The notes below the pieces were generated by a model, which saw nothing but the letters and a program-made list of their open reading frames with translations, did no database searches and was not told the origin of the DNA. A DNA stretch of 49,634 bases from a virus. Location of the stretch: the IMG/VR virus record IMGVR_UViG_3300037847_004172, positions 1 through 49,634 of that record; one strand, written 5' to 3'. The translations under genes were made by a program, and so were the position numbers. This document shows, piece after piece, positions 28,005 to 41,751 of the stretch (position 1 is its first letter; the number at the start of each line of letters is the position of its first letter).

Positions 28005-29198
28005 ATGGGACAAACATACGACCTTATCAGAAAGCACATAAATGTAGCAAGTACATTTCCAAACTCCGCACAGTTTGCCAAGTACCTACACGGTATTGAT
28101 AACAGTGTAAAATATCCATCATGGAAAAAGCGCGTTGAAAGGTATCAACATGAGTTTGGGGCTATAGAGTTTGCAGAAGTAAATCCATACGAAGACCTAC
28201 CGGATGAGTGGGAGGGTACATGGAAATCTCTTGCAATAGACTTACACGCGCGAAGACCCGATATTACCTTGAAAGCATGGGAGAATCGAATACACGAAGC
28301 CAAAGATAGAGGTTTAATCAAAAAGAAACAACGCCCTAACTTTATCACTACTACTTTTGGTGGTGAACCTACAGACATTTCAGATGTTTGGGGTGCTATA
28401 GAAAGTGCAACAGGCGAAAACATCCGTAAGGCTGAAAACTCAAGATGGGCTGAAATAAGTTTCACAGGTGATAAATACATCGGTATTGCTCTTGCAAGCG
28501 ACCAACACATAGGTAACAAGTATACAGACCATGAGCGAATGAGAGAAGATGCAGAAATAGTTGCAAACACTCCTAATTGCTACGCTATACACGCGGGCGA
28601 CTTTATTGACAACTTCATAATAGACAAGCCTCGACCAAGTATGAAGGCAACGATTCCCCCCAGTGTTCAATGGAAACTATGCGACCACTACCTGTCTATG
28701 TTTGAAGATAAGATTCTTGCAGTAGTTGCAGGTAATCACGACCTATGGACCAGTGGCATGACAGATTATGACCCATTGAGCCGACAGGTACTCGATAGAG
28801 ATATACTATATCATCCCCATGAGTTAAACATTAGAATAATGAACGGTAAGATACCTTACAACTTTGCTATACGACACAAGAGGCGTGGTAACTCAAATAT
28901 CAACCCATCTCGCGTAGTTAAGAAAATGTGGGAGGATGGTGAAAGTGATTTCGATATTGGAGTTGTAGGTCATCATCATACACCAGTTATTGAAAACTTC
29001 ACAAGACATGGCCTTGAAAGATGGGCTGTGAGGCCGGGTAGTTACAAAATTATAGATGGTTACTCAGAAATGATTGGATTCCAAAACGAAAGACCAACCT
29101 GTCCGTTGGTTATACTTAATCCAAAAACAAGACATATACAAGTGTTTGCTGACTTAAGAGACGGTATTGAAACACTTAAGGTATTAAATGGTGAGTAA
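28005..29198 (+). CDS. Calcineurin-like metallophosphoesterase
   Basis: A 397-residue protein with the dinuclear-metal phosphoesterase motifs in order: Asp166-x-His168 (Ala-Ser-Asp-Gln-His-Ile-Gly), Gly-Asp199 (His-Ala-Gly-Asp-Phe), Gly-Asn244-His245-Asp246, His291 and Gly-His323-His-His325 (Val-Val-Gly-His-His-His-Thr). The first 110 residues are helical and may form a DNA-binding or adaptor part. Located directly before the terminase gene, it may act in DNA processing or packaging. Nuclease and cyclic-nucleotide phosphodiesterase roles are both possible. First gene after the divergent control region. Confidence 0.85.
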   Translation: MGQTYDLIRKHINVASTFPNSAQFAKYLHGIDNSVKYPSWKKRVERYQHEFGAIEFAEVNPYEDLPDEWEGTWKSLAIDLHARRPDITLKAWENRIHEAKDRGLIKKKQRPNFITTTFGGEPTDISDVWGAIESATGENIRKAENSRWAEISFTGDKYIGIALASDQHIGNKYTDHERMREDAEIVANTPNCYAIHAGDFIDNFIIDKPRPSMKATIPPSVQWKLCDHYLSMFEDKILAVVAGNHDLWTSGMTDYDPLSRQVLDRDILYHPHELNIRIMNGKIPYNFAIRHKRRGNSNINPSRVVKKMWEDGESDFDIGVVGHHHTPVIENFTRHGLERWAVRPGSYKIIDGYSEMIGFQNERPTCPLVILNPKTRHIQVFADLRDGIETLKVLNGE

Positions 29199-29200
29199 GT

Positions 29201-29443
29201 ATGGTAGATGAGTTTTTTCTTACAGAAACATGGAAATCTGATTGTGAGGAGTTTATGATAGGCTCTCTGATAGATGATACCGATAGTTTATTATTTTGCT
29301 TAGAGATAGGAGACTTTGAAGTTGCAACTATTGTTCTTGATAGGGCTAACATAGAAAGTCTCGTTGATTTCCTCGCTGAATGGACTGGCTTTCCAATGTT
29401 TGTTGACAGCAATCCATTAGGTGTATCAGATGAAAAGCAATGA
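29201..29443 (+). CDS. Small acidic protein, unknown
   Basis: An 80-residue acidic protein (Glu/Asp-rich; Phe-Glu-Val-Ala-Thr-Ile-Val-Leu-Asp-Arg-Ala-Asn-Ile) filling the gap between the phosphoesterase and the terminase and overlapping the terminase start. Position suggests a packaging accessory, for example a small terminase, but there is no helix-turn-helix to support that. Confidence 0.6.
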   Translation: MVDEFFLTETWKSDCEEFMIGSLIDDTDSLLFCLEIGDFEVATIVLDRANIESLVDFLAEWTGFPMFVDSNPLGVSDEKQ

Positions 29444-30935
29444 CTTAATTACTAATTTCAATCTACAAAGAAGTAGATACGACCATAGACACTTCTATGA
29501 GTGGTTAGGTTATACTTGGGGCAACCATATAGGAGAATGGTTTGACTTATTTAACGATAGGCAAGGTAAAAGTGTTCATAGGGTTTTACTGATTGCTCCG
29601 CGAGACCACTCCAAATCCACCACATTGAGGATAAAGGCTTTACACAGTCTACTTTTTGAGAGATGGCGCAACAAACCTTTCACTACATGGTTGTTCTCTG
29701 CAAGTAAAGACTTGGCAGCAAACCGTCTTGAAGAAATCAAAGAGGACTTGAAAAGACATCCGGAGTTATCACGGATGATAGATGAGTCTAAATCTAACAA
29801 ATGGAAACTACAACTAACCAATGGTGCGTGGATTAAGGCATCATCAGTAGGTTCTGCTATTCGTGGAGAACACCCTGCAAGGATTATTCTTGATGACGTA
29901 TTAGATGATGGTGGTGATAAGACCGATGAAGACATCAGACAGTGGTTTAGAAAGAAACTAACACCTATGCTTTCCCCCCAAACATCTATCTTTGTTGTAG
30001 GTACGCCTCTATCTCTTACAGACTTATACCACACTGAGATGCTTGAGAACATAGCATGGGTATCATGGAAAAAGGGTAGCGTGTTAAACTATGATGAGTG
30101 GGTCAAAAACCCCGAAGAAGTAGAGCCTATCGCTCTTTGGAAAGAATATAGACCGATTGAGTTTTTGTTAGAGCAAAGAGATGCTATGGGTGAATTGGCA
30201 TTTTCACAAGAATACCTTTGCCGTGTAGTTGATGATGCTTCGGCAGTGTTCCCCCAACACATTACACGTAAACATTTGCAAATGGAAACCTTCTTAGAAA
30301 AGGAGAAGTTGCATGAAGGTAGGTATGTGATAGGGTTTGACCCCTCACACGGTATAGGTAAGGACTATTCTGTTATGGTTGTTATGAGACAAGACAAAGA
30401 AGGATTCTTACACGTTGTAGATATATGGAGAAGGAATGACTTTGAACCAAGTAAACAGGCACAAGAAATAATTAGATTGTGTACTACATACAAGAATCCT
30501 ATCTTTGCTGCGGAGTCAGCAGGTTTTCAGAGGCTATATCATTCTCTTTTGCAAAACATGGGTGCGAATGTAGATTATAGACCAAGCCCAGTATCTAACA
30601 GGGTTCTCAAACAAGGACTGCTTATGAGAATGCGAGCATGGTTTGAACAGGGTAAAGTAGTATTCCCCTATGGAGACCATGAAACAAGAACAGTAGTCAA
30701 TGAGTTGTTGCATGAATTAGAGACTCACGCATGGGATGGTGGCCTTATTGTGGATAAAGGTAAGCATAACGATATAGTTATGGCTCTTGCACACGCGATA
30801 GACCAATTCAAGAATAAGACTACTTCGTCTGATTCCCCTATGGTATCTAAGGGTGTATCACTAAATAGTTGGAAAGGTAAGGCTTCGCCTCGTAATCCAA
30901 CCAGTAATGGTAGGTTTGTATCGTTTAGACCTTAG
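29430..30935 (+). CDS. terL: Terminase large subunit
   Basis: A 501-residue packaging motor. The ATPase has a variant Walker A at residues 56-64 (Ala-Pro-Arg-Asp-His-Ser-Lys-Ser-Thr, with Asp59 where Gly is usual) and Walker B Ile-Ile-Leu-Asp155-Asp156. The RNase-H-like nuclease has Asp304 (Phe-Asp-Pro-Ser), Glu362 (Ala-Ala-Glu-Ser-Ala-Gly) and Asp448 (His-Asn-Asp-Ile-Val). The ATG at 29430 is preferred over the GTG at 29421 because AGGTG precedes it. The gene ends against the oppositely oriented virion-type gene with a four-base overlap. Confidence 0.94.
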   Translation: MKSNDLITNFNLQRSRYDHRHFYEWLGYTWGNHIGEWFDLFNDRQGKSVHRVLLIAPRDHSKSTTLRIKALHSLLFERWRNKPFTTWLFSASKDLAANRLEEIKEDLKRHPELSRMIDESKSNKWKLQLTNGAWIKASSVGSAIRGEHPARIILDDVLDDGGDKTDEDIRQWFRKKLTPMLSPQTSIFVVGTPLSLTDLYHTEMLENIAWVSWKKGSVLNYDEWVKNPEEVEPIALWKEYRPIEFLLEQRDAMGELAFSQEYLCRVVDDASAVFPQHITRKHLQMETFLEKEKLHEGRYVIGFDPSHGIGKDYSVMVVMRQDKEGFLHVVDIWRRNDFEPSKQAQEIIRLCTTYKNPIFAAESAGFQRLYHSLLQNMGANVDYRPSPVSNRVLKQGLLMRMRAWFEQGKVVFPYGDHETRTVVNELLHELETHAWDGGLIVDKGKHNDIVMALAHAIDQFKNKTTSSDSPMVSKGVSLNSWKGKASPRNPTSNGRFVSFRP

Positions 30936-31255
30936 AATGCAAGGATAGCAACGATTGCATCATTACCGGGGTCTCCGGAAAACACTACAGTTACAGCGTT
31001 TGCTCCGGTAGCCTTTGCGGTTTTGATAGTTACGTTGTTGCTTCCATCATCCTTTAGGGTTGCAATAATCTTAGATGCAGTAGTTACACCTGCAACAGTC
31101 AGTGCTTCGCTTGCAGCACCTCCGGCAGTAGTGACTTCAACAACCTTGTCAGCGAGAACGTCTGTGACGCTGCTGGAAAGGTCTGCGGTGTCTACTCCAC
31201 CGTCTCTTATGTGGTGTCCCATGATTACATCTTGCAATTGTCGGTTCTTTGGCAT
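30932..31255 (-). CDS. Small virion-type protein, isolated leftward gene
   Basis: A 107-residue Ala/Val/Thr/Gly-rich protein. Thr-Ala-Asp-Leu-Ser-Ser-Ser-Val at about residues 23-30 resembles the start of many fibre or head-spike proteins, and beta-type alternation follows (Val-Thr-Ile-Lys-Thr-Ala, Ala-Val-Thr-Val-Val-Phe-Ser-Gly). It is cut off from the main virion block by the terminase operon and converges on it. No ribosome site precedes the ATG. A TATA-like box at about 31295-31310 with a short leader would fit leaderless or near-leaderless expression. Confidence 0.7.
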   Translation of the reverse strand: MPKNRQLQDVIMGHHIRDGGVDTADLSSSVTDVLADKVVEVTTAGGAASEALTVAGVTTASKIIATLKDDGSNNVTIKTAKATGANAVTVVFSGDPGNDAIVAILAF

Positions 31256-31294
31256 GAATAAGACTAATTACTTCTGTTTAATTAAGATTATTAT

Positions 31295-31312
31295 GTATTT
31301 ATAAAATATATA
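31295..31312 (-). promoter_or_regulatory. TATA-box-like promoter for the isolated virion gene
   Basis: Read leftward, the AT-only stretch contains TTTATAAATA about 40-55 bases before the ATG at 31255. A box placed 25 bases before a start site would give a leader of roughly 15-25 bases. The sequence matches the archaeal TATA consensus (TTTAWA), but in an AT-rich stretch this may be chance. Confidence 0.4.
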
Positions 31313-31363
31313 GTGTTTTTCTATAAAAAAATAAAAAATGAAAAAAAAATAAAAAAATTACGA

Positions 31364-31388
31364 GAGGGGGTTGGCGTGTAACCCCCTC
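31364..31388. repeat. Perfect 9-bp stem-loop beside A/T tracts
   Basis: GAGGGGGTT and AACCCCCTC enclose a seven-base loop, with long A runs on the left (T runs on the leftward strand). It looks like an intrinsic terminator for leftward transcription, yet no leftward gene lies to its right. It may insulate the isolated gene, or mark an origin or the cassette border. It is the first of the dense inverted repeats that continue to 36052. Confidence 0.65.
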
Positions 31389-31426
31389 CGCCACTGGCTG
31401 AATTATTGGCACAAAAATACTTGCAA

Positions 31427-31442
31427 TTTAGGGCGACCTAAA
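31427..31442 (+). promoter_or_regulatory. Palindromic operator-like box, copy 1
   Basis: TTTAGGGCGACCTAAA: a 6-bp inverted repeat around GCGA, preceded by TTGCAA and followed by CAAAAC, 70 bases before the ATG at 31512. The same arrangement occurs at 32679-32694 before the next gene. Confidence 0.6.
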
Positions 31443-31511
31443 ATCGCCAAAACCGTTGCACTGCAAGCCAGTTGAATAGTTGCAAATCCTCTTAAACTGG
31501 CATGGTATCCG

Positions 31512-32000
31512 ATGTTCATGGTGAAAGTACCATTTGAGAACGATGACGAACAGCCCGAAAACGCCAACAGCATTGACCCTATAGGGTCAATGGGTTCAGA
31601 AAAGGAGGTGTGGATTGATGGCAATTTTTCTGACCCTATCAACTTCTGCTTCTATCCGGTGTCGAAATCACAAATCGGCCTCCCTCAGATTGAGCAATTA
31701 GATACCTACGGTATCTTTACTCCTCAAATCGTCTATATGTCGGCTATCATTCCGGCTGATGTTGAAGATGATGAGCCGTTGAAGGTGTTTGCAATTACCT
31801 ACAACCAAGGATACGAAATGTACTCCACCAAGACCACAAAAACAGGCTTGCAGTCCCTCATTCTTGAGTCTGAATTGGAGTTTATGGAATTGGAATATCT
31901 TGAGTCTTGGGATGAAATCGAAATCGGCATTTCAGCATCATTTTGCCCTGCTGAATTGCAAGCCGAATTAGGGCTTGAAATGTTGCAAATTATGGAGTGA
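31512..32000 (+). CDS. Acidic protein, first gene of hairpin-rich cassette, unknown
   Basis: A 162-residue acidic protein (Glu/Asp/Leu/Ile-rich). The C-terminal half is Glu-rich and helical (Leu-Glu-Phe-Met-Glu-Leu-Glu-Tyr-Leu-Glu-Ser-Trp). The middle has beta-type segments (Val-Phe-Ala-Ile-Thr-Tyr). No family recognised. A perfect 22-bp palindrome (31571-31592) lies within codons about 21-27. ATG at 31512, or 31518, has only a weak ribosome site. Controlled probably by the box at 31427. Confidence 0.6.
   Translation: MFMVKVPFENDDEQPENANSIDPIGSMGSEKEVWIDGNFSDPINFCFYPVSKSQIGLPQIEQLDTYGIFTPQIVYMSAIIPADVEDDEPLKVFAITYNQGYEMYSTKTTKTGLQSLILESELEFMELEYLESWDEIEIGISASFCPAELQAELGLEMLQIME
31571..31592. 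repeat. Perfect 22-bp palindrome inside a coding region
   Basis: The 11-base half-site CATTGACCCTA is followed at once by its reverse complement. It lies within an open frame, so the codons must satisfy both the palindrome and the protein. Confidence 0.9.
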
Positions 32001-32152
32001 AATAAGGGAGCAGTGCAACGATTTCAATTTTTTTTTCGGTGGTGAATCTTGATGAAATCCGAAATCAGTTTGGAGTTGAAGCACTTGACAAATCCCCTAC
32101 TAAATCGAAGATTTAGTGTTCGGTTGAAATCCGGCTAAAAGTTGCAAAAATT

Positions 32153-32203
32153 GAGAGGGGCTGACTGACCTACGGTCAGCCTCTCTCTCTCTCTTTTTTT
32201 TTA
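32153..32203 (+). terminator. Intrinsic-type terminator
   Basis: A GC-rich hairpin (left arm GAGAGGGGCTGAC, right arm GTCAGCCTCTC, two G bulged) is followed by CT repeats and a run of nine T. It lies about 150 bases after the 31512-32000 gene and would end its transcript. Confidence 0.7.
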
Positions 32204-32326
32204 ACTTATCAGAATTAGTCTTCGACTATTTGAGATAAGGTAGGAAACTTCTCCGATTTTTTTGACTTTGAGAAGGTCAATCTTGATTGACACCAAGTGA
32301 TTTCAGTCCGGCTAATAGTGCTAATA

Positions 32327-32346
32327 GGTATCAACTCGTTGATACC
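32327..32346. repeat. Near-perfect palindrome between TCCGGCTA repeats
   Basis: GGTATCAAC, two bases, then GTTGATACC. It is flanked on both sides by TCCGGCTA repeats about 20 bases away, which looks like an iteron or operator cluster. Confidence 0.75.
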
Positions 32347-32394
32347 GTAGTCCGGCTATTAGTTGCAAATGGTCGAAAAAAAAACGATAAACTC

Positions 32395-32468
32395 GCGCAC
32401 CGGACTTCACGCAGGGAGAGTCATCAGAAGTCTCTCATGCCAAGTCCTTGACAAGCGCGTAGGTGCGC
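32395..32468 (+). ncRNA. Candidate structured RNA (three nested helices)
   Basis: GCGCAC (32395-32400) pairs with GTGCGC (32463-32468). Inside it GGACTT (32402-32407) pairs with AAGTCC (32442-32447). Inside that GAGAG (32416-32420) pairs with CTCTC (32432-32436). The region has no supported protein gene. It could be a leader element or small RNA upstream of the AAA+ gene; no known class is recognised. Confidence 0.4.
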
Positions 32469-32678
32469 CTCTAAGTGGTCGGTTTTTTCGATGGACTTCA
32501 TGTGCGAATCCGCCCGGAAATAAGCAATATATCTACGATATTTGCTTCATTTCTCATGCTGAGATTACACACTGGCCTCTGTATGTTCTGAATGGATAGA
32601 ATATCCAGTCAGAATGTATCCGAGCGTCTGTTTTACCAAACTATACTACTGAGTATTGTTTGGAAAAATTGCAAAAAA

Positions 32679-32694
32679 ATTAGGCCGACCTAAA
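32679..32694 (+). promoter_or_regulatory. Palindromic operator-like box, copy 2
   Basis: ATTAGGCCGACCTAAA, preceded by TTGCAA and A runs and followed by CAAAAC, 70 bases before the AAA+ gene start. It matches the box at 31427-31442 in sequence, flanks and distance to the start, suggesting co-regulation of the two transcripts. Confidence 0.6.
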
Positions 32695-32764
32695 CTTGTC
32701 AAAACTCAGACGGTGTGCATAATGCGAGAAAGAGTCTTAAGTAGGTGCGCCTCCGATTAGAGTG

Positions 32765-34576
32765 ATGGAGTCCGAAATTGGAAACCTGTTTGGAGCGATA
32801 ATGATGATTGCCTTCGGCTTAGATGCCACCAGTCTAAGCCACTTGGAGGTCTTTGGTGGACTGTATGGAGTAGCACCCATCCTTTCTTTGATAGGATGTG
32901 CGGTACTCAGCGTTCAGTCAGCAAAGAATATCTCGGTGGATGACTTAGAAAAAGTCAGAAGGAGGATAAAGAGGCTCGGTGCTTGCAATGTCTATAGACA
33001 AACTGCTTCCCACGACCAACTTTGCCCTTGTTGTGGAGAATCTACCAAGGGTAGAGAAGTTGCAAACTTCTTGTCTGATGGGTCTTCGACCCACATCTTC
33101 GGGAACAGAACGTCAAAGTGGCTTCACTTTGAATGTGGTGTTCAAGCAGGGTTTGCCGTAGGAGCAAAGAGGACTGCTAAGTCCCGCAAGACTCCTTCTG
33201 CGGAAACTGGAAAGACGATTCACTTTCAGCACCTTTACTACGACACTCCTCTTGACTTCAAGAGGATATTCAAAGTAGCAGTCCATGACCCTGCATTCAG
33301 CGACTCATTCTATACGAATGAAGCAGAGAATGATATATTGGCTTGGATTCGCAACAGTCCTCAGAGTCTTCACTCAGTGGCTCAGAGTGAGCCAAAGACC
33401 AAAGAACCCGTAAATGAACCAGTAATTTCTGAGCCAGTTGAGCCAGTTGCAACTAAAGTTGCAAGCAACAACTCTGCCGTTGGTCTAATAGAGAATGCTA
33501 TCCGAGAGATAGCAGGTCAAGCACTGGATGAATCCACTGTAAGAAGGATTGCAAAAGAAACTGCGGATTCCCAAATCGCACAGTTTAGCAAGTCCTTTGC
33601 TCCGGTAAGAACCCTTCAAGTAGTGAAGGGTCAAGAAATAGTTTCATCTTCCGATGAAGTCTATCATCCTCATTTCCCAACTGCGTTGGGAATTATGACT
33701 GCTGGACTTGCAACAAGAGGATTCCCTAACCCAGTCTTTATGACTGGGGATGCCGGTACTGGAAAGTCTTACGCGGCGAAGATGTTTCACAACTTGTTGC
33801 AACAAGTTGGTTTGCTATCTTCTGAACAAGACTACAAAGAAGTTGTCTGCTTCGCAGATATGGAGAAAGGCGACTTGATTGGTCGAGTTTCTTACAACAT
33901 AACCGAAGGTTCGATGGACTGGAATCAGAGTGGTCTTACCACTGTTCTGCTCAATGGAGGCATAGCCTTCATTGATGAATTGGATAAGGCCGACCCACAA
34001 GTTGCAACTTTGTTGAATGGTGTTCTTGCTTCTCGTCAATTGGCTCACCCAGTGACAGGCGAAGTATTGCAAGTCAGCAATAATGCTTACATTATTGCAG
34101 CAGGTAATACCACTGGCTTCACCAAGTCACCAAAGTTTGTGAGTGCAGTAAGACAAGACGCTTCGCTTCTTGACAGATTTGCCGGTGGCTTTGTGTCCTT
34201 CGGACACTCAGACCGAATCATGGCTCATATTTGTGGCATTGGAAATGCCGGTAGAATGGAATCAGAGGAGTCACCCGAAGGGAATCCCGCTTCTCCTCAA
34301 GAAGTCTTTGACGCTTTCAAGGCACTAAAAGACTTGAGCGATAGCAGTAGAAGCCCTATCCCAATGTCCTATAGGGCATTGGAGGTCGGTATCAGTCTTG
34401 CAAATGCCGGATGGACTATGCCAAGCATAGTAGGTCGTTGGATTCTACCTTTCAATGATGAATTGAAAAGACAAGTAGTTGCAAAATCAATCGGTGGTCT
34501 AACATCACATGAAGAATCTGCTTCGCTGATTCCTCGCAATGTTGAGCCAATAACAGTAGTAGGAGGAGCAGTCTGA
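32765..34576 (+). CDS. MoxR/CobS-type AAA+ ATPase with membrane and zinc-like N-terminus
   Basis: A 603-residue protein. Residues about 8-50 contain two hydrophobic segments (Ala-Ile-Met-Met-Ile-Ala-Phe; Val-Ala-Pro-Ile-Leu-Ser-Leu-Ile-Gly-Cys-Ala-Val-Leu). A Cys-Pro-Cys-Cys cluster at 87-90 with Cys124 may bind metal. The AAA+ domain (about 300-600) has Walker A Gly-Asp-Ala-Gly-Thr-Gly-Lys-Ser (328-335), Walker B Ala-Phe-Ile-Asp404-Glu405-Leu-Asp, sensor-1 Asn448 and Leu-Leu-Asp-Arg471-Phe. MoxR ATPases remodel partner proteins, usually with a VWA protein encoded beside them; the next gene is the candidate. Its coding sequence is packed with perfect hairpins. Confidence 0.85.
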   Translation: MESEIGNLFGAIMMIAFGLDATSLSHLEVFGGLYGVAPILSLIGCAVLSVQSAKNISVDDLEKVRRRIKRLGACNVYRQTASHDQLCPCCGESTKGREVANFLSDGSSTHIFGNRTSKWLHFECGVQAGFAVGAKRTAKSRKTPSAETGKTIHFQHLYYDTPLDFKRIFKVAVHDPAFSDSFYTNEAENDILAWIRNSPQSLHSVAQSEPKTKEPVNEPVISEPVEPVATKVASNNSAVGLIENAIREIAGQALDESTVRRIAKETADSQIAQFSKSFAPVRTLQVVKGQEIVSSSDEVYHPHFPTALGIMTAGLATRGFPNPVFMTGDAGTGKSYAAKMFHNLLQQVGLLSSEQDYKEVVCFADMEKGDLIGRVSYNITEGSMDWNQSGLTTVLLNGGIAFIDELDKADPQVATLLNGVLASRQLAHPVTGEVLQVSNNAYIIAAGNTTGFTKSPKFVSAVRQDASLLDRFAGGFVSFGHSDRIMAHICGIGNAGRMESEESPEGNPASPQEVFDAFKALKDLSDSSRSPIPMSYRALEVGISLANAGWTMPSIVGRWILPFNDELKRQVVAKSIGGLTSHEESASLIPRNVEPITVVGGAV

Positions 34577-34590
34577 GTATACTCAGACTG
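34569..34590. repeat. Perfect 22-bp palindrome over the AAA+ stop codon
   Basis: Half-site CAGTCTGAGTA followed directly by its reverse complement; the stop TGA (34574-34576) lies within it. It sits 27 bases before the next start, whose AAAGGAGGTGA ribosome site follows. It could attenuate transcription or balance expression of the two products. Confidence 0.9.
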
Positions 34591-34616
34591 TTCTTGCAAC
34601 TAAAGGAGGTGAAAAG

Positions 34617-35543
34617 ATGTTGAAGAATGACAAAACCGATATTCACGGTGTCCGAACAGGACACTTTAGGCATGGAGGTCAGACTGTGGATTTCATTTAC
34701 GCACCGTCTCACTCTGCCATGATTCGAGCCATCGAAGATGGTGAAAGAAATGAGGGCATCCAAACTCTTGCTGATGGTAATAATTGGCATGGTCGGAATG
34801 TATCTGCCAAGCAGATAAAGATAGAAGGGAAAGAAGGCGCAGGGTACTCTGCGGATTCTAAAGCAGTGAAAAAGCATGAAGGAGCAATGCTTGACGCATT
34901 GTCTCAGTATACCTCAGAAGTAGTTGCAAATGTCAGATTGTGGACTGATAGTCCACGCTCTGTAAATGCAATCTCAGTTGATAGACTAATGCGAGGCGAA
35001 GCCGGCTTCAAGTCTAAGAAGCGCGTAAGGGTGAAGGATGAAGTGATTGCCGTATTCGTTCCAACGAATGCTTTAGCAGACATTGACTCAGAAATCGTAC
35101 AAATACGCTCATCCGCCGCTTTAGCGGCGGCGGAGATATTAGAGGAGAATGGATACATGGTCGAGATTTACGGCCTTGCTTATAGCAAATGGGTGACAGG
35201 TGATGCCTCCGGTTGTGCAGTGACTTGCATCAAGCGTGCTGATGAAGTTTTCAACTTAGCACAATCGGCTTCGGCACTATCCTCATGGGTATGGAGAACG
35301 GTCACATTCTCTGCACGTTCTCTCGGAGCAAGGAGAGCAAGGAACAAATCATCTTCGGGTAGCGGTTCTTCACAAGAACCGGACAGGGAGTTTTGCGACA
35401 AACTTGCAAGTATCCTAAACTGTGACCGATTTACTGCGGTAAATCTTATCCCACGAAACAACAATGTCAAAACACAAATCAACAAAGCGGTTGATGCAGT
35501 GATAACTGCACTTGAGGAGGTGTTGGTTGATGAATCCCAGTGA
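34617..35543 (+). CDS. Probable partner of the AAA+ ATPase (VWA-like position)
   Basis: A 308-residue protein translated from an excellent site (AAAGGAGGTGA). The central segment (Val-Lys-Asp-Glu-Val-Ile-Ala-Val-Phe-Val-Pro-Thr-Asn-Ala, a long helix Ala-Leu-Ala-Ala-Ala-Glu-Ile-Leu-Glu-Glu-Asn-Gly, then Met-Val-Glu-Ile-Tyr-Gly) has the strand-helix-strand rhythm of a VWA or Rossmann-like domain. No clear Asp-x-Ser-x-Ser metal site is present. Residues about 245-260 are Ser/Gly-rich. Pairing with a MoxR-type ATPase supports a partner role. Function inferred from context only. Confidence 0.7.
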   Translation: MLKNDKTDIHGVRTGHFRHGGQTVDFIYAPSHSAMIRAIEDGERNEGIQTLADGNNWHGRNVSAKQIKIEGKEGAGYSADSKAVKKHEGAMLDALSQYTSEVVANVRLWTDSPRSVNAISVDRLMRGEAGFKSKKRVRVKDEVIAVFVPTNALADIDSEIVQIRSSAALAAAEILEENGYMVEIYGLAYSKWVTGDASGCAVTCIKRADEVFNLAQSASALSSWVWRTVTFSARSLGARRARNKSSSGSGSSQEPDREFCDKLASILNCDRFTAVNLIPRNNNVKTQINKAVDAVITALEEVLVDESQ

Positions 35544-35820
35544 TTTCGCAGAGTTTCTAACTCTGCCTACGGAGGCGGTTGTTGATGTTATCAACTGCCT
35601 TGTAGGTGGAGACGAGGAGGAGCGTAATGCTCATGCCTCTGCACTTCTTGCAATGCTCATTTACAATGAGGGTGTGGAAGATGAGGACACCGTTGTATCT
35701 CTTGCTCAAGACATAATGCACATGAGAGAAGCAGTTGCAAGACTCGAACAAATATCCCAAGAGGATATTGATGACCTACAGAACCGATTGCATGAAGCGA
35801 GAGGAGGTGGCAAACAATGA
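35530..35820 (+). CDS. Small acidic helical protein, unknown
   Basis: A 96-residue protein. The ATG at 35530 is chosen because GAGGAGGTG lies 8-9 bases before it, inside the end of the previous gene. Acidic and mostly helical (Ala-Ser-Ala-Leu-Leu-Ala-Met-Leu; Glu-Ala-Val-Ala-Arg-Leu-Glu-Gln-Ile). No family recognised. Confidence 0.65.
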   Translation: MNPSDFAEFLTLPTEAVVDVINCLVGGDEEERNAHASALLAMLIYNEGVEDEDTVVSLAQDIMHMREAVARLEQISQEDIDDLQNRLHEARGGGKQ

Positions 35821-36002
35821 GCGAAATTAATTTGAATAATGCTCAAATTAATTGTAATTGTTGCAAGTCATACCCGAAGGCTTGCGATAGTTGCGGGATT
35901 GAACCCGCTTCTATCGTAGGTTGGGATGCTACACATTCCGCACTGAACAGGAAAGGAACGCTGTTCCTTTGCGATAGTTGCTACTTTGCAACTTTTGAAT
36001 GA
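35817..36002 (+). CDS. Small zinc-ribbon-like protein
   Basis: A 61-residue protein with Cys pairs Cys-Asn-Cys-Cys, Cys-Asp-Ser-Cys-Gly and Cys-Asp-Ser-Cys-Tyr, enough for one or two zinc sites. It starts in an ATGA overlap. Within its 186 bases there are an 11-bp perfect stem (35825-35853), a nested stem (35885-35916) and an 8-bp stem (35952-35970). Confidence 0.65.
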   Translation: MSEINLNNAQINCNCCKSYPKACDSCGIEPASIVGWDATHSALNRKGTLFLCDSCYFATFE

Positions 36003-36295
36003 TGGTTCGGTGGTTATCCAGTGAATGAAATTAAGGCTAACCTGCGGTTAGCATTTTTGCAAAACCGCGCAACCACAAGCACAGCGCAAGCCCTCCCTCG
36101 CCCATGTGAGGGAGAGAGAACGGGAAAGACAGGAAAAGACGAGATATTTTCCGCAGATTTTGAGGGGTCGAGCGTGTACTGGGGCATCACACAGGTATGT
36201 CGCAGATACACACACAGCCCCGCCTATGCGTGCGAGTCTACCGTTTTCGATGGATTAGTTAATATACCGAGTGTCGAGACGAGGGGCTGAATCAC
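36003..36295. other. Intergenic gap with terminator, no supported gene
   Basis: After the hairpin at 36036-36052 the 240 bases to 36295 hold no good start signal. An 89-codon GTG/ATG frame from 36021 begins inside the terminator hairpin, lacks a clear ribosome site and has no domain-like sequence. The stretch probably holds the promoter for the small-gene operon. Confidence 0.5.
36036..36057 (+). terminator. Terminator-like hairpin ending the AAA+ cassette
   Basis: GCTAACC, TGC, GGTTAGC, then ATTTTT. A perfect 7-bp stem with a triloop and short T run, 34 bases after the stop of the zinc-ribbon gene. Confidence 0.6.
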
Positions 36296-36661
36296 ATGAC
36301 GATTGACGAATTGACGAACAGACTGAAACAACAGATGAATGTCCCACAGGTGGATGAGCCTACAGGCAGTGAGCCTACAGGCAAGTCCCTGCGTAGGGTC
36401 AGACGCGAGAAGGCAGAGAAATATGACGAAATGGTTTTGCAAGTAGCATCCTTGCAGACATCACTTGCTCGCGCTATTAGACACAGAGAGGACATTGCCC
36501 TTGCGGTTGAATCTTTCTTCGATGCAAAACAGAAATTGCAAGACGCACAGTGTGCAACCCCACCCACTCATCCAACAGACGTTGCCGTACTTGGTGAGCG
36601 TGTCAAAGAGGCACGCTTTGCTTTGGGTGACTTGGTGGATGACGCACTTGGAGGTGAATGA
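36296..36661 (+). CDS. Coiled-coil protein, unknown
   Basis: A 121-residue charged protein with a probable coiled coil across residues about 35-80 (Arg-Val-Arg-Arg-Glu-Lys-Ala-Glu-Lys-Tyr-Asp-Glu-Met). A short repeat, Glu-Pro-Thr-Gly-Ser/Lys, occurs at residues 21-29. First gene of the small-gene operon. Function unknown. Confidence 0.62.
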   Translation: MTIDELTNRLKQQMNVPQVDEPTGSEPTGKSLRRVRREKAEKYDEMVLQVASLQTSLARAIRHREDIALAVESFFDAKQKLQDAQCATPPTHPTDVAVLGERVKEARFALGDLVDDALGGE

Positions 36662-37255
36662 ATGAATAAAGACGATACAAAAGAATTGACAGTGAATGCG
36701 AAGATGACTACACCCCCGCCTATGGGTGATGGGCTTATGGCCTATATGCAACAAAGGCACATGGAGCAGAAAGTGCCGATGCCTACAACGGTGCAGTTTG
36801 ACCCAAGCGAGATGGTAATGAGTGTACCCGCAGGTATGATATTCCTACAAGACGCATGGCAAAAGAGCGTGGTAAGTACAATTGCAACTATTGTCGGGCA
36901 TATTCCTAAGAATATAAGCAAAGAATTGACTGCCGAAACCATAGGCGAACACATGGCAGATGACGGAGACCTATTCTTCCGCGTTTGTGCTTTCACAGAC
37001 TTGCAATTATTCAAAAACTCGGAGAATGAAATGGGCTTTGAAGATGAAGTCAAGCACCAACTAAACCTACTTGCAAGAGATGTGTGCGAGTATGCGTGGG
37101 ACTGGGTACATACACACAGGGATGACATAGAAGAAGAAGACGGCCAAATAAAAATCCATAACAGAATGTACGATTCTGACGGCAATCTAAACGTCCCAGT
37201 TGCAACTAATGAAAATGAAGACTACGATGACGCATTTACAGGAGAGTGGGTCTGA
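36662..37255 (+). CDS. Unknown protein, 197 residues
   Basis: Acidic protein with Met-rich N-terminus (Met-Ala-Tyr-Met-Gln-Gln-Arg), a hydrophobic helix near residues 58-85 and an acidic tail. ATG lies one base beyond the previous stop region. A helical domain around residues 95-150 (Phe-Phe-Arg-Val-Cys-Ala-Phe-Thr-Asp-Leu) may be the core. No family recognised. Confidence 0.62.
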   Translation: MNKDDTKELTVNAKMTTPPPMGDGLMAYMQQRHMEQKVPMPTTVQFDPSEMVMSVPAGMIFLQDAWQKSVVSTIATIVGHIPKNISKELTAETIGEHMADDGDLFFRVCAFTDLQLFKNSENEMGFEDEVKHQLNLLARDVCEYAWDWVHTHRDDIEEEDGQIKIHNRMYDSDGNLNVPVATNENEDYDDAFTGEWV

Positions 37256-37842
37256 TGCGTGACGATGAAACGCTATACGAGTGGGGGGATGCAAACGGGA
37301 ATCCACCCGCAAAGGAGGGTTGGTATCAAACCCTGTGGGTGTGCCGTACAGGTGATAAGGAGGTTTTCTATACTCTTTATCAGACTCAGTGGTACAAAAG
37401 CAAAGACCCAAAGACAGGTAAGTTGCAAACTTGGTTGAGAAGTGGGTTTATTCAGAACCTTTCACACACGCTCAATGAAGCAATTGCAAAAGCCGAAGTC
37501 ATGCGAGAAGGCACACTGGCTCGCTATCCGGACAAGGCACACGTGAGAATCAGATACTCCGAAACCCCACGAAAGAAGGTTGAACCTTACTTCGACATTG
37601 GTTTAGGAGATGATTTCCGTATGCACATGAACAAGAGGCAGACGATGTGGTATGCACACCCCAATGAGGCGTTTTGGGACTATTGGAGAGAGAACAAAGC
37701 CGACCTAAAGGAGAATGGTATTTGGGTATCCAAGATAGACTATCAATGGTTCGTATTCAGAAAAGTTGCAGAAGGTGAAGTCATGTGGTTGGATGATGAC
37801 GGATATGATGTGAACGACATGGATGTGGAGGTGAGCGCATGA
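37255..37842 (+). CDS. Unknown protein rich in Trp and Tyr
   Basis: A 195-residue protein starting at the ATG of a TGATG junction. Many Trp/Tyr residues (Gly-Trp-Tyr-Gln-Thr-Leu-Trp-Val-Cys; Glu-Ala-Phe-Trp-Asp-Tyr-Trp-Arg) and an acidic C-terminus. The opening segment resembles a small beta domain. No function recognised. Confidence 0.62.
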   Translation: MRDDETLYEWGDANGNPPAKEGWYQTLWVCRTGDKEVFYTLYQTQWYKSKDPKTGKLQTWLRSGFIQNLSHTLNEAIAKAEVMREGTLARYPDKAHVRIRYSETPRKKVEPYFDIGLGDDFRMHMNKRQTMWYAHPNEAFWDYWRENKADLKENGIWVSKIDYQWFVFRKVAEGEVMWLDDDGYDVNDMDVEVSA

Positions 37843-38009
37843 ACAAGATAGGAGCATTAGCAGAAATAGTCGAAGAAACACTCTTGCAAGAAAAGAAGAA
37901 CCTTGAGGCGTATGACCCAATGCACAACGACCCCGATATGCACAATTGCGAGGGTTGGTGTGAGGCACTACAATTTGTGCTAAGGCAAATAGAGGTGATT
38001 GTAGAATGA
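37839..38009 (+). CDS. 56-residue acidic protein, unknown
   Basis: Starts in an ATGA overlap with the previous gene after GGAGGTGAGC. Helical and acidic, with Cys-Glu-Gly-Trp-Cys near residue 42. A later small protein (41197-41355) has a similar C-terminal helix (Ala-Leu-Gln-Phe-Val-Leu-Arg-Gln-Ile here; Glu-Met-Val-Leu-Arg-Arg-Ile there), hinting at a duplicated family. Confidence 0.55.
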   Translation: MNKIGALAEIVEETLLQEKKNLEAYDPMHNDPDMHNCEGWCEALQFVLRQIEVIVE

Positions 38010-38197
38010 GAAGCCTACCTACGAGAGTCACACGCAACGGTAGACGTGTAGTTGCACGCTACGGAGGGGCTACGGCTACCTACCTATGCACAAGCACACG
38101 CTCTGCCCGCAGACTGGTGCATAGGCTTGAGCAGGGGTACAACGAGAAGGTTGATTTCGGACAAAATGTTTATGTACCAACCATCGAGGAGGAGTGA
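38006..38197 (+). CDS. 63-residue basic protein, unknown
   Basis: Starts in an ATGA overlap. Arg-rich N-terminal half (Arg-Val-Thr-Arg-Asn-Gly-Arg-Arg-Val-Val-Ala-Arg-Tyr) that could bind nucleic acid. Ends Ile-Glu-Glu-Glu because GAGGAGGAG is the next gene's ribosome site. Confidence 0.55.
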   Translation: MRSLPTRVTRNGRRVVARYGGATATYLCTSTRSARRLVHRLEQGYNEKVDFGQNVYVPTIEEE

Positions 38198-38199
38198 TT

Positions 38200-38562
38200 A
38201 TGACGGAAACGACATGGATAAGAGTGCCAGTAGATATGACAGAAGATGTGAGCATCCTACACAGGGGGGAGAATGCGGATGACATTACACTTGCACAGTT
38301 GCAAGAGGGTGTGGGTGGACTCATTGAGTACGCACATCACGACTTAACTGATGGCGAGGAAATAATTGTGAACGAAGAAGGACTATGCTTCAACGACCCA
38401 GTAGTGAACATCCGCGCGATAACTGCATCGGGCATTAGGCAGATATTAGTGGGTGATGCAATCTTGCAAACACCTACCCACTTGGAGGACACGCACTTGA
38501 TGGCAATGGGATTCATTACGGAAATCATACGCAACAAGTTGCAACTAATGGAGGAGGAGTGA
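38200..38562 (+). CDS. DUF3846-like protein
   Basis: A 120-residue protein. The ATG at 38200 is used because GGAGGAG precedes it at normal spacing. Residues about 35-95 follow the DUF3846 pattern known from mobile elements: Val-Gly-Gly-Leu-Ile-Glu, then Ile-Val-Asn-Glu-Glu-Gly-Leu-Cys-Phe-Asn-Asp-Pro-Val-Val-Asn-Ile-Arg-Ala, then Ile-Leu-Val-Gly-Asp-Ala. The molecular role of that family is not established. Confidence 0.65.
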   Translation: MTETTWIRVPVDMTEDVSILHRGENADDITLAQLQEGVGGLIEYAHHDLTDGEEIIVNEEGLCFNDPVVNIRAITASGIRQILVGDAILQTPTHLEDTHLMAMGFITEIIRNKLQLMEEE

Positions 38563-38564
38563 AT

Positions 38565-39065
38565 ATGGATAAAGAATCGCTCAAGAAAGAATTGCAAGAA
38601 AAACTTGCTTCACAAATTGATACTCAACGGGGGGGTGGTGCGGACAGGTCACGTCATTTTCGGGCATCTGTCATTCATCAACAACCTGCCTCTCCGCGTA
38701 AAGTGGTGACGCGAGGTGAGTTTTCATCTCTCCGCCCCTCACGCGGATTCCGCAAGCCCTCCCAACTTGCACTCCTACCTACAAGCGGGGACTTCTCGCT
38801 AATTGCAAACAAAAGAGGATTCCCTCAACTTGATTTCGTTATCTCATGTGGGTCATGTGGTGCAGACGCATGGACTCCATGTATAGGCGGTGGAGTTTGC
38901 AAGTCCCGCAAGTTTGACTGGATTGCAAGAGCCAATGCCTCTGAGAAACACCGAGAATGCTACAAGAAATTATCCACTGCTTCACGTAGATGGGTGAGGG
39001 AAACCAAGCCCGAATATGTGCCTCCTTGGGAGCGTGCTGATTGGATGAAGGGGGTAGGCGCATGA
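38565..39065 (+). CDS. Zinc-finger protein of phage type
   Basis: A 166-residue protein. The N-terminal half is Arg/Ser/Pro-rich and probably disordered. The C-terminal half has Cys-Gly-Ser-Cys-Gly-Ala-Asp-Ala-Trp-Thr-Pro-Cys and a following Cys-Lys-Ser-Arg-Lys-Phe-Asp-Trp-Ile ... Lys-His-Arg-Glu-Cys, a zinc-binding arrangement seen in many phage small proteins. Nucleic-acid binding is likely; role unknown. Confidence 0.62.
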   Translation: MDKESLKKELQEKLASQIDTQRGGGADRSRHFRASVIHQQPASPRKVVTRGEFSSLRPSRGFRKPSQLALLPTSGDFSLIANKRGFPQLDFVISCGSCGADAWTPCIGGGVCKSRKFDWIARANASEKHRECYKKLSTASRRWVRETKPEYVPPWERADWMKGVGA

Positions 39066-39391
39066 CTAAGATAGGTGGATATGTGAATATGTATATTTCA
39101 GACCAGTGGGTTGACTGTCATAATTGTGACGAAGAAGTAATGGTTGCAAGTATCGAGGAGTTGGAAAGTATTTCACCAACAGACATGGGTATCCATTTGT
39201 ATTGCAACCCATGCCCCAAATGTGGGATTGTGAATGTGTACGAGTACATTGCAAATCCACGATACTCGAAGCAAATGACGCGAGTTGCAACTAACGAACA
39301 CTTTGAGCAGACAGGTGATGAGCGTGGTAGCGTGGACTTTTACGAGACAGGCAAGACCGTATGGTGTTTTGCAAATGAGGAGGAGGAGTGA
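39062..39391 (+). CDS. Zinc-ribbon-like protein
   Basis: A 109-residue protein from the ATG at 39062 (ATGA overlap). Cys-His-Asn-Cys-Asp-Glu-Glu near residue 17 and Cys-Asn-Pro-Cys-Pro-Lys-Cys near residue 48 suggest a zinc ribbon. Ends in four Glu that encode the next ribosome site. Confidence 0.62.
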   Translation: MTKIGGYVNMYISDQWVDCHNCDEEVMVASIEELESISPTDMGIHLYCNPCPKCGIVNVYEYIANPRYSKQMTRVATNEHFEQTGDERGSVDFYETGKTVWCFANEEEE

Positions 39392-39392
39392 A

Positions 39393-39566
39393 ATGCCTTC
39401 ACTAATACAACAGGTACGCCAATTGCTTGAGTTTGTTGAACAACAATACCGCCAAGACCGCAAGTACATTGAATGGTTAGAGAACACACACAGACATCTC
39501 TATCCCGACCAAGACATATACACTGCGTATGAGAAAGCAACAGGGCAGTATGAGGAGGAGGAGTGA
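39393..39566 (+). CDS. 57-residue helical protein, unknown
   Basis: Begins at the ATG two bases after the previous stop, after GAGGAGGAGGAG. Gln/Glu/Tyr/Arg-rich helix (Leu-Leu-Glu-Phe-Val-Glu-Gln-Gln-Tyr-Arg-Gln-Asp-Arg). Ends in four Glu. Probably a small coiled-coil protein. Confidence 0.55.
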   Translation: MPSLIQQVRQLLEFVEQQYRQDRKYIEWLENTHRHLYPDQDIYTAYEKATGQYEEEE

Positions 39567-39568
39567 AC

Positions 39569-39895
39569 ATGGATGAGGACATATACTACAATCAAGGCGA
39601 CTACCCACGTGAAGACCCATTCGGACACACAGTAGGCACTGTTGATTCGAGAGGAGTCATAGACATGGGGGATGGGACATTCTTTGCAACTAAAGATTAC
39701 AAGACCATAAAACTCCCCGAACAATTTGGAGGACACTTCACTCCTGTAATTGCAAGAACATCAATCCCGTTTATGGGACAGGTAGCCGTGTGCTACCTAC
39801 TTGTAGGCAAGGTATCAGTAATAGTTGCAAATAATGGCTTCAATTGGGTATCTACTGAAAGTATACAACAATTCTTCGACACGGAGGAGGAGTGA
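39569..39895 (+). CDS. 108-residue protein, unknown
   Basis: ATG at 39569 preferred over the in-frame GTG at 39563, which overlaps the previous stop. Acidic N-terminus, then a beta-type domain (Val-Ala-Val-Cys-Tyr-Leu-Leu-Val-Gly-Lys-Val-Ser-Val-Ile-Val-Ala). Ends Glu-Glu-Glu. No family recognised. Confidence 0.57.
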   Translation: MDEDIYYNQGDYPREDPFGHTVGTVDSRGVIDMGDGTFFATKDYKTIKLPEQFGGHFTPVIARTSIPFMGQVAVCYLLVGKVSVIVANNGFNWVSTESIQQFFDTEEE

Positions 39896-39897
39896 GT

Positions 39898-40035
39898 ATG
39901 AGTGAGGTTATGTGGGTGAGTGGTATCATTTGCAACAGATGTGGGAACACATTGCCCCCGCACACTGCGGAGGAACACCTTGACGTAGACCATCCAGTGC
40001 ATATATGCCCGCATTATATCGAGGTGGTTGAATGA
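39898..40035 (+). CDS. 45-residue zinc-finger peptide
   Basis: Starts after GGAGGAGGAGTG at good spacing. Cys-Asn-Arg-Cys-Gly, His-Thr, His-Leu, His-Pro-Val-His-Ile-Cys-Pro-His form a likely Cys/His metal site. Overlaps the next gene in ATGA. Confidence 0.55.
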   Translation: MSEVMWVSGIICNRCGNTLPPHTAEEHLDVDHPVHICPHYIEVVE

Positions 40036-40214
40036 CTAACAAGGGAATTGTAAAAGATATGCGTTATCAACTGAGTAAAGTTGCAGGTGCAATAGCATAC
40101 ATTGACGGGTTGGAAGACTTAGGGGACTTCGAGTATTTCAAATGGTTTATATTGAGATACGGAGACGAGAATGCAATAAGAGTTGCAGGTTTAGAGGAGG
40201 ATGAAGAAGAATGA
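40032..40214 (+). CDS. 60-residue acidic protein, unknown
   Basis: Starts in ATGA. Helical (Tyr-Gln-Leu-Ser-Lys-Val-Ala-Gly-Ala-Ile-Ala-Tyr-Ile) with an Asp/Glu tail that encodes the next ribosome site. No function recognised. Confidence 0.55.
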   Translation: MTNKGIVKDMRYQLSKVAGAIAYIDGLEDLGDFEYFKWFILRYGDENAIRVAGLEEDEEE

Positions 40215-40483
40215 GTACAGAAGTGAAAGATATAACTCAGTTGGAGTTTTCCTTCGAGTGTTGGATGCCAGTTGACGTGATGAATGACTTGGACAACGCA
40301 GACTTGTGGCGTACAGGTAAGGTCAAGAGATTTTGGCTCAAGTATTGCACACTCTGCATGGAGTTGCAAGATGGTACTATCGTGGAGGAGGACTTGTCCG
40401 GTCTTGAGACAATCGAGGACTACAAGTGGCCTATCAAAACTATGGTCGAGGTAAATGATAACTGGGAGGAGTGGAAAGAATGA
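40211..40483 (+). CDS. 90-residue acidic protein, unknown
   Basis: Starts in ATGA. Contains Cys-Thr-Leu-Cys-Met near residue 46 and a beta-type stretch (Met-Glu-Leu-Gln-Asp-Gly-Thr-Ile-Val-Glu-Glu-Asp). The preceding segment Phe-Trp-Leu-Lys-Tyr suggests a small beta barrel. Unknown. Confidence 0.57.
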   Translation: MSTEVKDITQLEFSFECWMPVDVMNDLDNADLWRTGKVKRFWLKYCTLCMELQDGTIVEEDLSGLETIEDYKWPIKTMVEVNDNWEEWKE

Positions 40484-41025
40484 ACATATTTGTGTTAGAC
40501 GAGAACCCAATACTTGCAGGTAAGATGTATTGCGACAAGCACGTGCCTAAGATGGTCGTGGAGTTGTATCAACAACTTGGTAGCGCAGTCATCAGACACG
40601 GTGCTACACCCGACCAACTCCCGCTTACAAAGGCCGGAACGCCACTACGCGGTGGCTACCACAATCACCCCGCGACTCGTTGGGTGGGAGATTCACGCGC
40701 AAACTTCCTGTGGGCATCATATCACGCGGCAGTTTTGTGTGAGGAGTACAACAAAAGATTTGCAAAAGAACATTTTTGTGAGTTGGGATTGGAGCAACTT
40801 TACACACTGAGTTATCTCATACCCGAAGGAGACCTTACACCATTTGCACTATGTATGCCGGATGAATACAGGCCGGAGAACGTAGACGGGGATGAGGTCA
40901 TCTACCATGCAACAGGTGATGTCGCGGTGCAAGCATACAGAGACTACTACCATAGCAAAACATTTGCAAGATGGGACAAAGGGCGAGACGCACCCGCTTG
41001 GTGGAAAGGTGCAAGGGAGGAATGA
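40480..41025 (+). CDS. Widespread phage protein (Asn-Ile-Phe-Val-Leu-Asp type), unknown function
   Basis: A 181-residue protein from the ATG at 40480. It opens Met-Asn-Ile-Phe-Val-Leu-Asp-Glu-Asn-Pro, then Cys-Asp-Lys-His-Val-Pro-Lys-Met-Val-Val-Glu. It continues His-Pro-Ala-Thr-Arg-Trp, Asn-Phe-Leu-Trp, Cys-Met-Pro-Asp-Glu-Tyr and ends with Tyr-Arg-Asp-Tyr-Tyr ... Trp-Trp. This pattern recurs in many phage genomes. A relation to pyrimidine-dimer glycosylase-like proteins has occurred to me but cannot be shown here. Confidence 0.65.
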   Translation: MNIFVLDENPILAGKMYCDKHVPKMVVELYQQLGSAVIRHGATPDQLPLTKAGTPLRGGYHNHPATRWVGDSRANFLWASYHAAVLCEEYNKRFAKEHFCELGLEQLYTLSYLIPEGDLTPFALCMPDEYRPENVDGDEVIYHATGDVAVQAYRDYYHSKTFARWDKGRDAPAWWKGAREE

Positions 41026-41028
41026 AAA

Positions 41029-41196
41029 ATGAATGGTATGTTTAACAGATACGAAGGATATGAAAAGGAAAGCATTTTGCGAAAGATAGACGAAAAGAAA
41101 AGAGAGATTGTTTATCTCGATGCAGAGATAAGCAGTGCAGAAGAAGATTTGCAAATGCTCGAATTGGAATTAGAACGCATAGAGGAGGAGGAGTGA
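41029..41196 (+). CDS. 55-residue coiled-coil peptide
   Basis: A short frame between two overlapped genes, preceded by GGGAGGAATG. Strong heptad pattern (Ile-Leu-Arg-Lys-Ile-Asp-Glu-Lys; Leu-Gln-Met-Leu-Glu-Leu-Glu-Leu-Glu) and a terminal four-Glu run encoding the next ribosome site. Confidence 0.55.
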   Translation: MNGMFNRYEGYEKESILRKIDEKKREIVYLDAEISSAEEDLQMLELELERIEEEE

Positions 41197-41355
41197 ATGA
41201 CATTGGAGAATCTAAGAGAAGAAATGCAAGCAACTTTGGATGAGGAAGTTAAAAGGTCAAGATACGATGATTGGGATTATGACGTTGATACTTGGATTGA
41301 AGTCCTTGAGATGGTGCTAAGACGGATAGACCATTACATAGGTGAGGAGGAGTGA
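41197..41355 (+). CDS. 52-residue acidic peptide
   Basis: Starts directly after the previous stop, with GAGGAGGAGGAG before it. Tyr-Asp-Asp-Trp-Asp-Tyr-Asp-Val-Asp-Thr-Trp in the middle and a helix Glu-Met-Val-Leu-Arg-Arg-Ile like that in the 37839-38009 product. Unknown. Confidence 0.52.
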   Translation: MTLENLREEMQATLDEEVKRSRYDDWDYDVDTWIEVLEMVLRRIDHYIGEEE

Positions 41356-41357
41356 GT

Positions 41358-41441
41358 ATGACTACGAGAATCTTCTGTCCCCGATGCGAACATTCAATAG
41401 CATACTGCGCTTCGTATGGTTGCAAGGAGTTGAAAGCATGA
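41358..41441 (+). CDS. 27-residue zinc-knuckle peptide
   Basis: Begins after GAGGAGGAGTGAGT. Cys-Pro-Arg-Cys-Glu-His and Cys-Ala-Ser-Tyr-Gly-Cys give four Cys and one His for metal binding. The stop overlaps the next start (ATGA). The tight fit supports translation. Confidence 0.5.
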   Translation: MTTRIFCPRCEHSIAYCASYGCKELKA

Positions 41442-41632
41442 GTGAAGAACCATTCGTACAAACAAAGAGATGTTGCATTTGCAACGAATTGTTAGACGTG
41501 AAAAGAACAGATGAAGGCAAGGTATACTGGACTAACGGACACAATGCCGAACCTGTTATGACAGGTAGGTGTTGCGATGTTTGCCAGTGGGGGAAAGTAA
41601 TGCCCGCAAGATTAGAGGCGGTGTTCTCTTGA
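41438..41632 (+). CDS. Zinc-finger protein, phage type
   Basis: A 64-residue protein from the ATG at 41438. Cys-Cys-Ile-Cys-Asn-Glu, then Thr-Asn-Gly-His-Asn-Ala-Glu-Pro-Val and Gly-Arg-Cys-Cys-Asp-Val-Cys. This is a pattern (Cys pair, Gly-His-Asn-Ala-x-Pro, Cys-Cys-x-x-Cys) common to small phage zinc proteins. Function unknown. Confidence 0.65.
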   Translation: MSEEPFVQTKRCCICNELLDVKRTDEGKVYWTNGHNAEPVMTGRCCDVCQWGKVMPARLEAVFS

Positions 41633-41751
41633 TTTTCGATTTGTTAGAAGAAATGTACGAAGACCCGTTGGAAATCGTAGCCACGCTCTTGCAAGTTGCA
41701 ATCGGTTGCGTGGGTGTAGCCCTTTGTGTGATAGTGGGGGCATTCCTATGA
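41629..41751 (+). CDS. 40-residue single-span membrane peptide
   Basis: A frame beginning at TTG 41629 (TTGA overlap), or at ATG 41653. The C-terminal 22 residues are a membrane segment (Leu-Gln-Val-Ala-Ile-Gly-Cys-Val-Gly-Val-Ala-Leu-Cys-Val-Ile-Val). A holin-like or membrane-regulator peptide is possible; the start is uncertain. Confidence 0.45.
   Translation: MIFDLLEEMYEDPLEIVATLLQVAIGCVGVALCVIVGAFL

Follow-up and report, generated by a model that had tools for sequence, protein, structure and literature searches.

A hairpin-tiled segment at a conserved position in a family of uncultured tailed viruses, with signs of self-templated DNA synthesis

Why should a virus genome carry perfect inverted repeats packed into one segment, inside genes as well as between them, and how are the two arms of each repeat kept alike? 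The question is raised by positions 31364–36052 of the window, i.e., the whole 49,634-nt stretch of virus DNA analyzed here, which a preliminary description had reported as packed with hairpins that become very rare beyond 36052. Hairpins, defined as perfect inverted repeats with a loop of 0–9, were listed by script across the whole window. The segment holds 60 with a stem of at least 6, 34 with at least 7, 19 with at least 8, and 8 with at least 9, the last being all of the window's stems of that length. Relative to the rest of the window the density per kb was 12.8 vs. 3.5 (stem 6+), 7.2 vs. 0.93 (7+), 4.1 vs. 0.18 (8+), and 1.7 vs. 0 (9+); no hairpin with stem 7+ and loop ≤7 was found in the 3 kb upstream, and beyond 36.1 kb there is about 1 per 2 kb. 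The original claim of at least 25 hairpins of 7 bp or more is borne out and exceeded, and the individual hairpins that it listed were recovered to within one base (at 33247, 33611, 33674, 33790, 34077, 34415, 34940, 35054, 35113, 35363, 35428, 35548, 35751, 35825, and 35952). Dinucleotide-preserving shuffles of the segment gave on average 10.8 hairpins of stem 6+, 2.6 of 7+, and 0.75 of 8+ (maxima 23, 9, and 4), which agrees with the earlier estimate of about three expected by chance. It had also been proposed that codon choice is bent to form the hairpins. Consistent with this, the CobS/MoxR-type gene (32765–34576) contains 13 hairpins (stem 7+) vs. a mean of 1.3 and a maximum of 5 in synonymous-codon shuffles, and the DUF7192 gene (34617–35543) contains 7 vs. 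a mean of 0.7 and a maximum of 3, while the terminase gene, taken as a control, has 0 vs. 0.6. The density is equalled neither outside the segment nor in the synonymous shuffles. Derivation of the hairpins from a repeat family was considered and rejected, as the stems have no common sequence and only short direct repeats at chance level are present. Elsewhere in the window, a gene for a 1572-aa collagen-like tail fibre (14009–18727), with a G+C content of about 55% in its middle vs. about 40% around, has a surplus of 6-bp hairpins that is accounted for by codon shuffles.

Table 1. Features of the hairpin-tiled segment and its flanks in the window.
Feature	Position	Strand	Basis and remarks
Metallophosphoesterase gene	28005–29198		
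Terminase large subunit gene	29421–30935	+	phrog_38, E 6.8e-51; no stem-7+ hairpin; upstream landmark
Small gene separating the terminase gene from the boundary element	30932–31255	-	ORF; hairpin-free; conserved in L011, 89% aa in G004
Boundary element: A/T-rich tract, then ACGAGAGGGGGTTGGCG (family motif like GCGTGGTGGTAGGCG)	31291–31380	.	hairpins start here
First hairpin, GAGGGGGTT-ggcgtgt-AACCCCCTC	31364–31388	.	
Hairpin-tiled segment	31364–36052	.	perfect hairpins: 60 with stem 6+, 34 with stem 7+
Nested hairpins	31427–31449	.	arms differ in concert from near-identical L001 (GGCGA..TCGCC vs. GCAA..TTGC)
162-aa gene, no assigned function	31512–32000	+	ORF; contains hairpins; 48% aa in G004
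Stretch with hairpins and T-tracts	32001–32761	.	probably noncoding
Hairpin, GGTATCAAC-tc-GTTGATACC	32327–32346	.	loop inverted (ga) in L011
CobS/MoxR-type AAA+ ATPase gene	32762–34576	+	AAA_5, E 1.3e-18; phrog_249; 13 hairpins of stem 7+
DUF7192 protein gene	34617–35543	+	PF23822, E 7.3e-12; 7 hairpins
96-aa gene, no assigned function	35530–35820	+	ORF
61-aa cysteine-rich protein gene	35817–36002	+	ORF
Last hairpin, GCTAACC-tgc-GGTTAGC, then ATTTTT	36036–36052	.	possibly a terminator

The limits of the segment had been described as those of a five-gene unit. This holds in the window (Table 1) but not in distant relatives. Relatives (L and G numbers below) were found among IMG/VR contigs with the terminase protein, at 61–92% identity once two distant matches and the virus of the window itself (100%) are set aside, and further ones with the ATPase of one contig found in this way; all are metagenome assemblies, in which alleles may be mixed. 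Those that contain the segment after the terminase gene were all dense or enriched in hairpins, the weakest being L010 (same contig as L013) with up to 5 per kb, and whole contigs had one hairpin segment each. In the distant relatives there are about 10–24 hairpins (stem 7+) per kb near the terminase gene, with stems up to 17 bp, and the segment is denser and longer than in the window, decays over about 18 kb and spans genes that the window lacks, which are equally tiled (L003 8458–9315, L018 12815–13867). Two haloviruses examined for comparison never exceeded 2.5 hairpins per kb. As the segment extends over other genes in these relatives, the unit is a position in the genome rather than a set cassette of five genes. 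That the cassette came from elsewhere, as had been suggested, is disfavored by the finding that the same position is dense or enriched across the relatives, unshared genes included.

That position is marked by the boundary element, an A-rich tract followed by a motif like GGTGGTAGGCG or GCGTGGTGGTAGGCG, whose place and character are conserved among relatives and over which L015 and L018 align. The hairpins start at this element even where it is separated from the terminase gene by other genes (the window, L011, L015), and the tracts fade from it in one direction. In G001, successive 1.5-kb intervals starting at the boundary contain 28, 28, 22, 13, 8, 3, 4, 5, 4, and 3 hairpins, with 0–4 per 1.5 kb farther on and on the opposite side. 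Locally repetitive and unlike the other hairpins is a noncoding run in L018 (15082–15330) built from CACATGC/TACATG-like words. A 350-aa protein from the densest hairpin zone (L018 12815–13867) is 44% identical to its counterpart in G002, while the terminases are 98% identical. Such protein divergence was rejected as proof of hypermutation; genes in the hairpin zone diverge rapidly, but rapid divergence is also seen in genes of the window that lack hairpins (36296–42961).

The hairpins share a signature at their apex. Three-base loops, which had been noted as frequent, are the commonest in the segment (21, where a stretch of the same size from the remaining window has about 2); no one-base loops occur, and in most hairpins the pair next to the loop is C-G or T-A. 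Among 624 non-overlapping hairpins, pooled, GNA (73) and TNC (87) account for 160 of 262 triloops, where chance would give 12.5% (p ~1e-75), and for 11 of 21 in the window alone (p 1e-5). An earlier pooling had C-G closing 152 of 205 triloops, two-base loops of the form T-tt-A (25) and T-aa-A (24), and CTAG at the center of 26 of 38 zero-loop palindromes. The bias is limited to the loop and the two inner pairs (a pyrimidine on the 5' side at 0.86, 0.73, and then about 0.5), past which stem G+C is near background. Stem lengths fall off in a roughly geometric manner, and no regular spacing of the hairpins was found, their distances being about random.

Comparison of relatives indicates how the arms change. 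Near-identical genome pairs are few and pair counts depend on the alignment, and within these bounds arms were seen to change in concert. L023 and L025 differ at 3 positions in 11,667 nt, two of which form a compensatory pair within one hairpin; between L018 and L019 (99.6%) the whole mid-stem of one hairpin is replaced in both arms; and the window differs from L001 (99.7%; same virus) by three compensated pairs at 31431–31449. Loops were also found inverted. Between L059 and L025 a four-base loop, CAAC, has become exactly GTTG on an unchanged 11-bp stem, and further cases include ACTG to CAGT (L052/L053), GTA/TAC, TT/AA, and AA/TT (L020/L021), and TC/GA in the window hairpin at 32327 (vs. L011). 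Inversions make up 7 of about 70 changed loops, the two-base cases being individually weak. In the noncoding leader of two genome pairs that are 92–95% identical, compensated vs. broken pairs number 19 vs. 13 and 15 vs. 3; the L011/L012/L024 group gives a weaker picture, with 13 broken and 1–2 compensated pairs. Divergence in the first pair is 0.127 in leader stems, 0.124 in spacers, and 0.141 at four-fold sites of the terminase gene, and in the second 0.095, 0.080, and 0.104, so that stems diverge like spacers and about like four-fold sites, in compensated pairs and without the slowing expected of purifying selection. If the mutation rate of a base pair is 2u, if every second change spreads to the other arm, and if each spread alters both sites, unbiased mutual copying of the arms is expected to give stems the neutral rate (our own derivation). 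Stems would on the other hand evolve more slowly if one-arm mutations were purged unless independently compensated. Templated (quasi-palindrome) mutation, one of the explanations offered at the outset, is supported by the concerted arm changes, the loop inversions, and the neutral-rate divergence of stems.

On these grounds template switching is favored, and it is on balance probable, as judged from the sequences, that self-templated DNA synthesis focused at the segment both creates the hairpins and maintains their perfect pairing. A strand would fold back on a small stable apex, presumably a GNA or similar loop with about two pyrimidine-purine pairs, and its end would be extended with the opposite arm as template. 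Later one-arm mutations would be copied to the other arm or erased, and strand switching would also invert loops. The activity would begin at the conserved A-rich/G-rich element near the terminase gene and fade one way, possibly because a process starting from this element, such as strong transcription, a replication start, or a packaging cut, exposes single strands; such exposure at the segment is plausible. It would be mostly by synonymous codon choice that the encoded proteins accommodate the hairpins. Density, boundary, loop signature, and one-way decay are counted for this reading along with the concerted changes, inversions, and neutral-rate stems. Against it are counted some swaps of both arms without a visible donor, which need two steps or recombination with another strain, the small number of loop inversions, the mostly broken pairs of the L011/L012/L024 group, and the possible mixing of alleles in metagenome assemblies. 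For RNA genes, template switching has been described as a source of perfect stems, multi-base compensatory changes, and loop inversion (PMC8794818), and homogenization of inverted-repeat arms with inversion of the spacer is described for yeast (PMC8604942). The known cases are scattered events, whereas here one bounded and tiled segment, found again in relatives, decays one way from an element that is itself conserved. Quasi-palindrome mutation linked to high transcription in yeast (PMC3820800) is similar in that locus-specific, arm-extending mutations are tied to a local process, but it was seen in reporter assays without RNase H2, while the present case is natural and family-wide. In halovirus HF2, promoters were demonstrated in AT-rich intergenic repeats (PMC8707807).

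The hairpins may instead have been selected as a functional DNA structure, cruciform or single-stranded, that serves, e.g., to initiate packaging or replication, to take up supercoils, or to control promoters, with templated changes only supplying variants. This we regard as rather unlikely, even though the position of the segment is conserved over a divergent family, the boundary element adjoins the terminase gene, and some hairpins are kept at 64% nucleotide identity with compensatory changes. The apex is of the C-GNA-G type known to extrude in phage N4, where promoter hairpins of the virion RNA polymerase need a C-G-closed GNA loop (PMC4496689). These too are small DNA hairpins, but N4 has three promoters with conserved bases, while the stems seen here number in the dozens, are unrelated to one another, and often lie in coding DNA; the N4-type loop is present and an N4-type conserved stem sequence is absent. 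What speaks against a selected structure is that stem sequence, length, and spacing look random, that stem G+C is near background and stability is not compensated, that stems evolve at the neutral rate, and that in G001 and G002 the hairpins thin out little by little across many genes. A dense tract lasting across a divergent family could nevertheless mean that the hairpins are useful. It is tempting to speculate, though we hold it doubtful, that the segment is a compartment of the viral genome in which the element by the terminase gene directs a dedicated, one-way DNA synthesis that forms hairpins, or else an array of cruciforms that is maintained, either being used by the virus, e.g., in packaging, replication start, control of early expression, or diversification of adjacent genes.

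Selection for folded mRNA, with hairpins that protect or regulate transcripts of the unit, had also been offered as an explanation. In the window the hairpin unit is an apparent transcription unit with a terminator-like hairpin at its end, and its codon choice is bent, as would be expected. Stems with a single mismatch, pooled from eight genomes, however contain G-U 26 times vs. A-C 21 times, i.e., no excess of G-U; an early test on the window alone had favored G-U (5–7 vs. 1), a lean that vanished with more genomes. The loop preference is the same on both strands, loops invert freely, dense tracts occur outside genes too, and an Rfam search of 31000–36500 gave no match. Selection for stability was likewise rejected, as G+C does not trade off with stem length. 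Together with the near-background stem G+C past the apex these results disfavor the folded-mRNA reading, which we consider improbable, and by the same statistics the hairpin signature is one of DNA rather than of mRNA.

Short-tract recombination among strains with different hairpin alleles, the hairpins having arisen long ago, would explain block swaps such as the L018/L019 mid-stem replacement (L016 resembles L019) and the multi-base remodelling between L053 and L054, both of which need a multi-base donor. It yields neither loop inversions nor the loop signature and leaves origin and location unexplained, and no imported differences were found nearby in the flanks of the swapped L018/L019 hairpin; it is very improbable as an overall account. 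An artefact of assembly or amplification, conceivable where all sequences are metagenome assemblies and contig G002 ends within the segment, is hardly credible when the same place is affected in many independent contigs with differing stems and nowhere else in them, and reading frames stay open through the hairpins.

Template switching is usually inferred from rare and scattered events, and compensatory base changes are the usual proof of a selected RNA structure. With hundreds of hairpins at a single defined position, in genomes ranging from near-identical pairs to wide divergence, the family offers a natural laboratory for the questions of how perfect stems originate, how the likeness of their arms is kept up, which apex primes the event, and what localizes it. 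The compensatory changes seen here appear to be due to DNA copying, and this has consequences for the interpretation of covariation in other cases. A literature search limited to openly accessible papers found no description of such a hairpin-tiled segment. A survey of perfect inverted repeats in 118,019 genomes (PMC13155455) covers arms of 10+ that are perfect and have short spacers, as here, but viral spacers were 0 or 4 with a preference for intergenic DNA, in contrast to the 3-nt loops and many intragenic hairpins of the present segment. Perfect inverted repeats within protein genes are also described for nematomorph mitochondria (PMC6649704); unlike those of this viral segment, they are up to 284 bp long and belong to mitochondrial genes of animals.

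Judged by gene content, the host of these uncultured tailed viruses (Caudoviricetes) is likely archaeal, since the relative G001 encodes an ERCC4-HhH nuclease and a PolB closest to that of halovirus HCTV-5 (23% identity). The genome of HCTV-5 has an AAA gene at a short distance from a von Willebrand gene. A host search in the form of one scan of genome contigs for terminase relatives found none, and a search of phage records by DNA similarity gave no match. The structural-gene half of the window also encodes a 2OG-Fe(II) oxygenase (12206–12769). Word usage differs sharply within the family: TTGCAA occurs 177 times in the window vs. about 22 expected (8-fold) and 213 times vs. 29 in G004, while G001, G002, and G003 have exactly 0 vs. 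22–25 expected, so that one hexamer is hoarded or banned within one family. The window carries a gene for an N6/N4 DNA methyltransferase (46784–47704) that has no tblastn match in G004, though the TTGCAA excess is found there too. GATC occurs 0 times in each of 19 loci checked, including L001, where 20–95 are expected per locus, and this absence suggests strong restriction or defence pressure on GATC.
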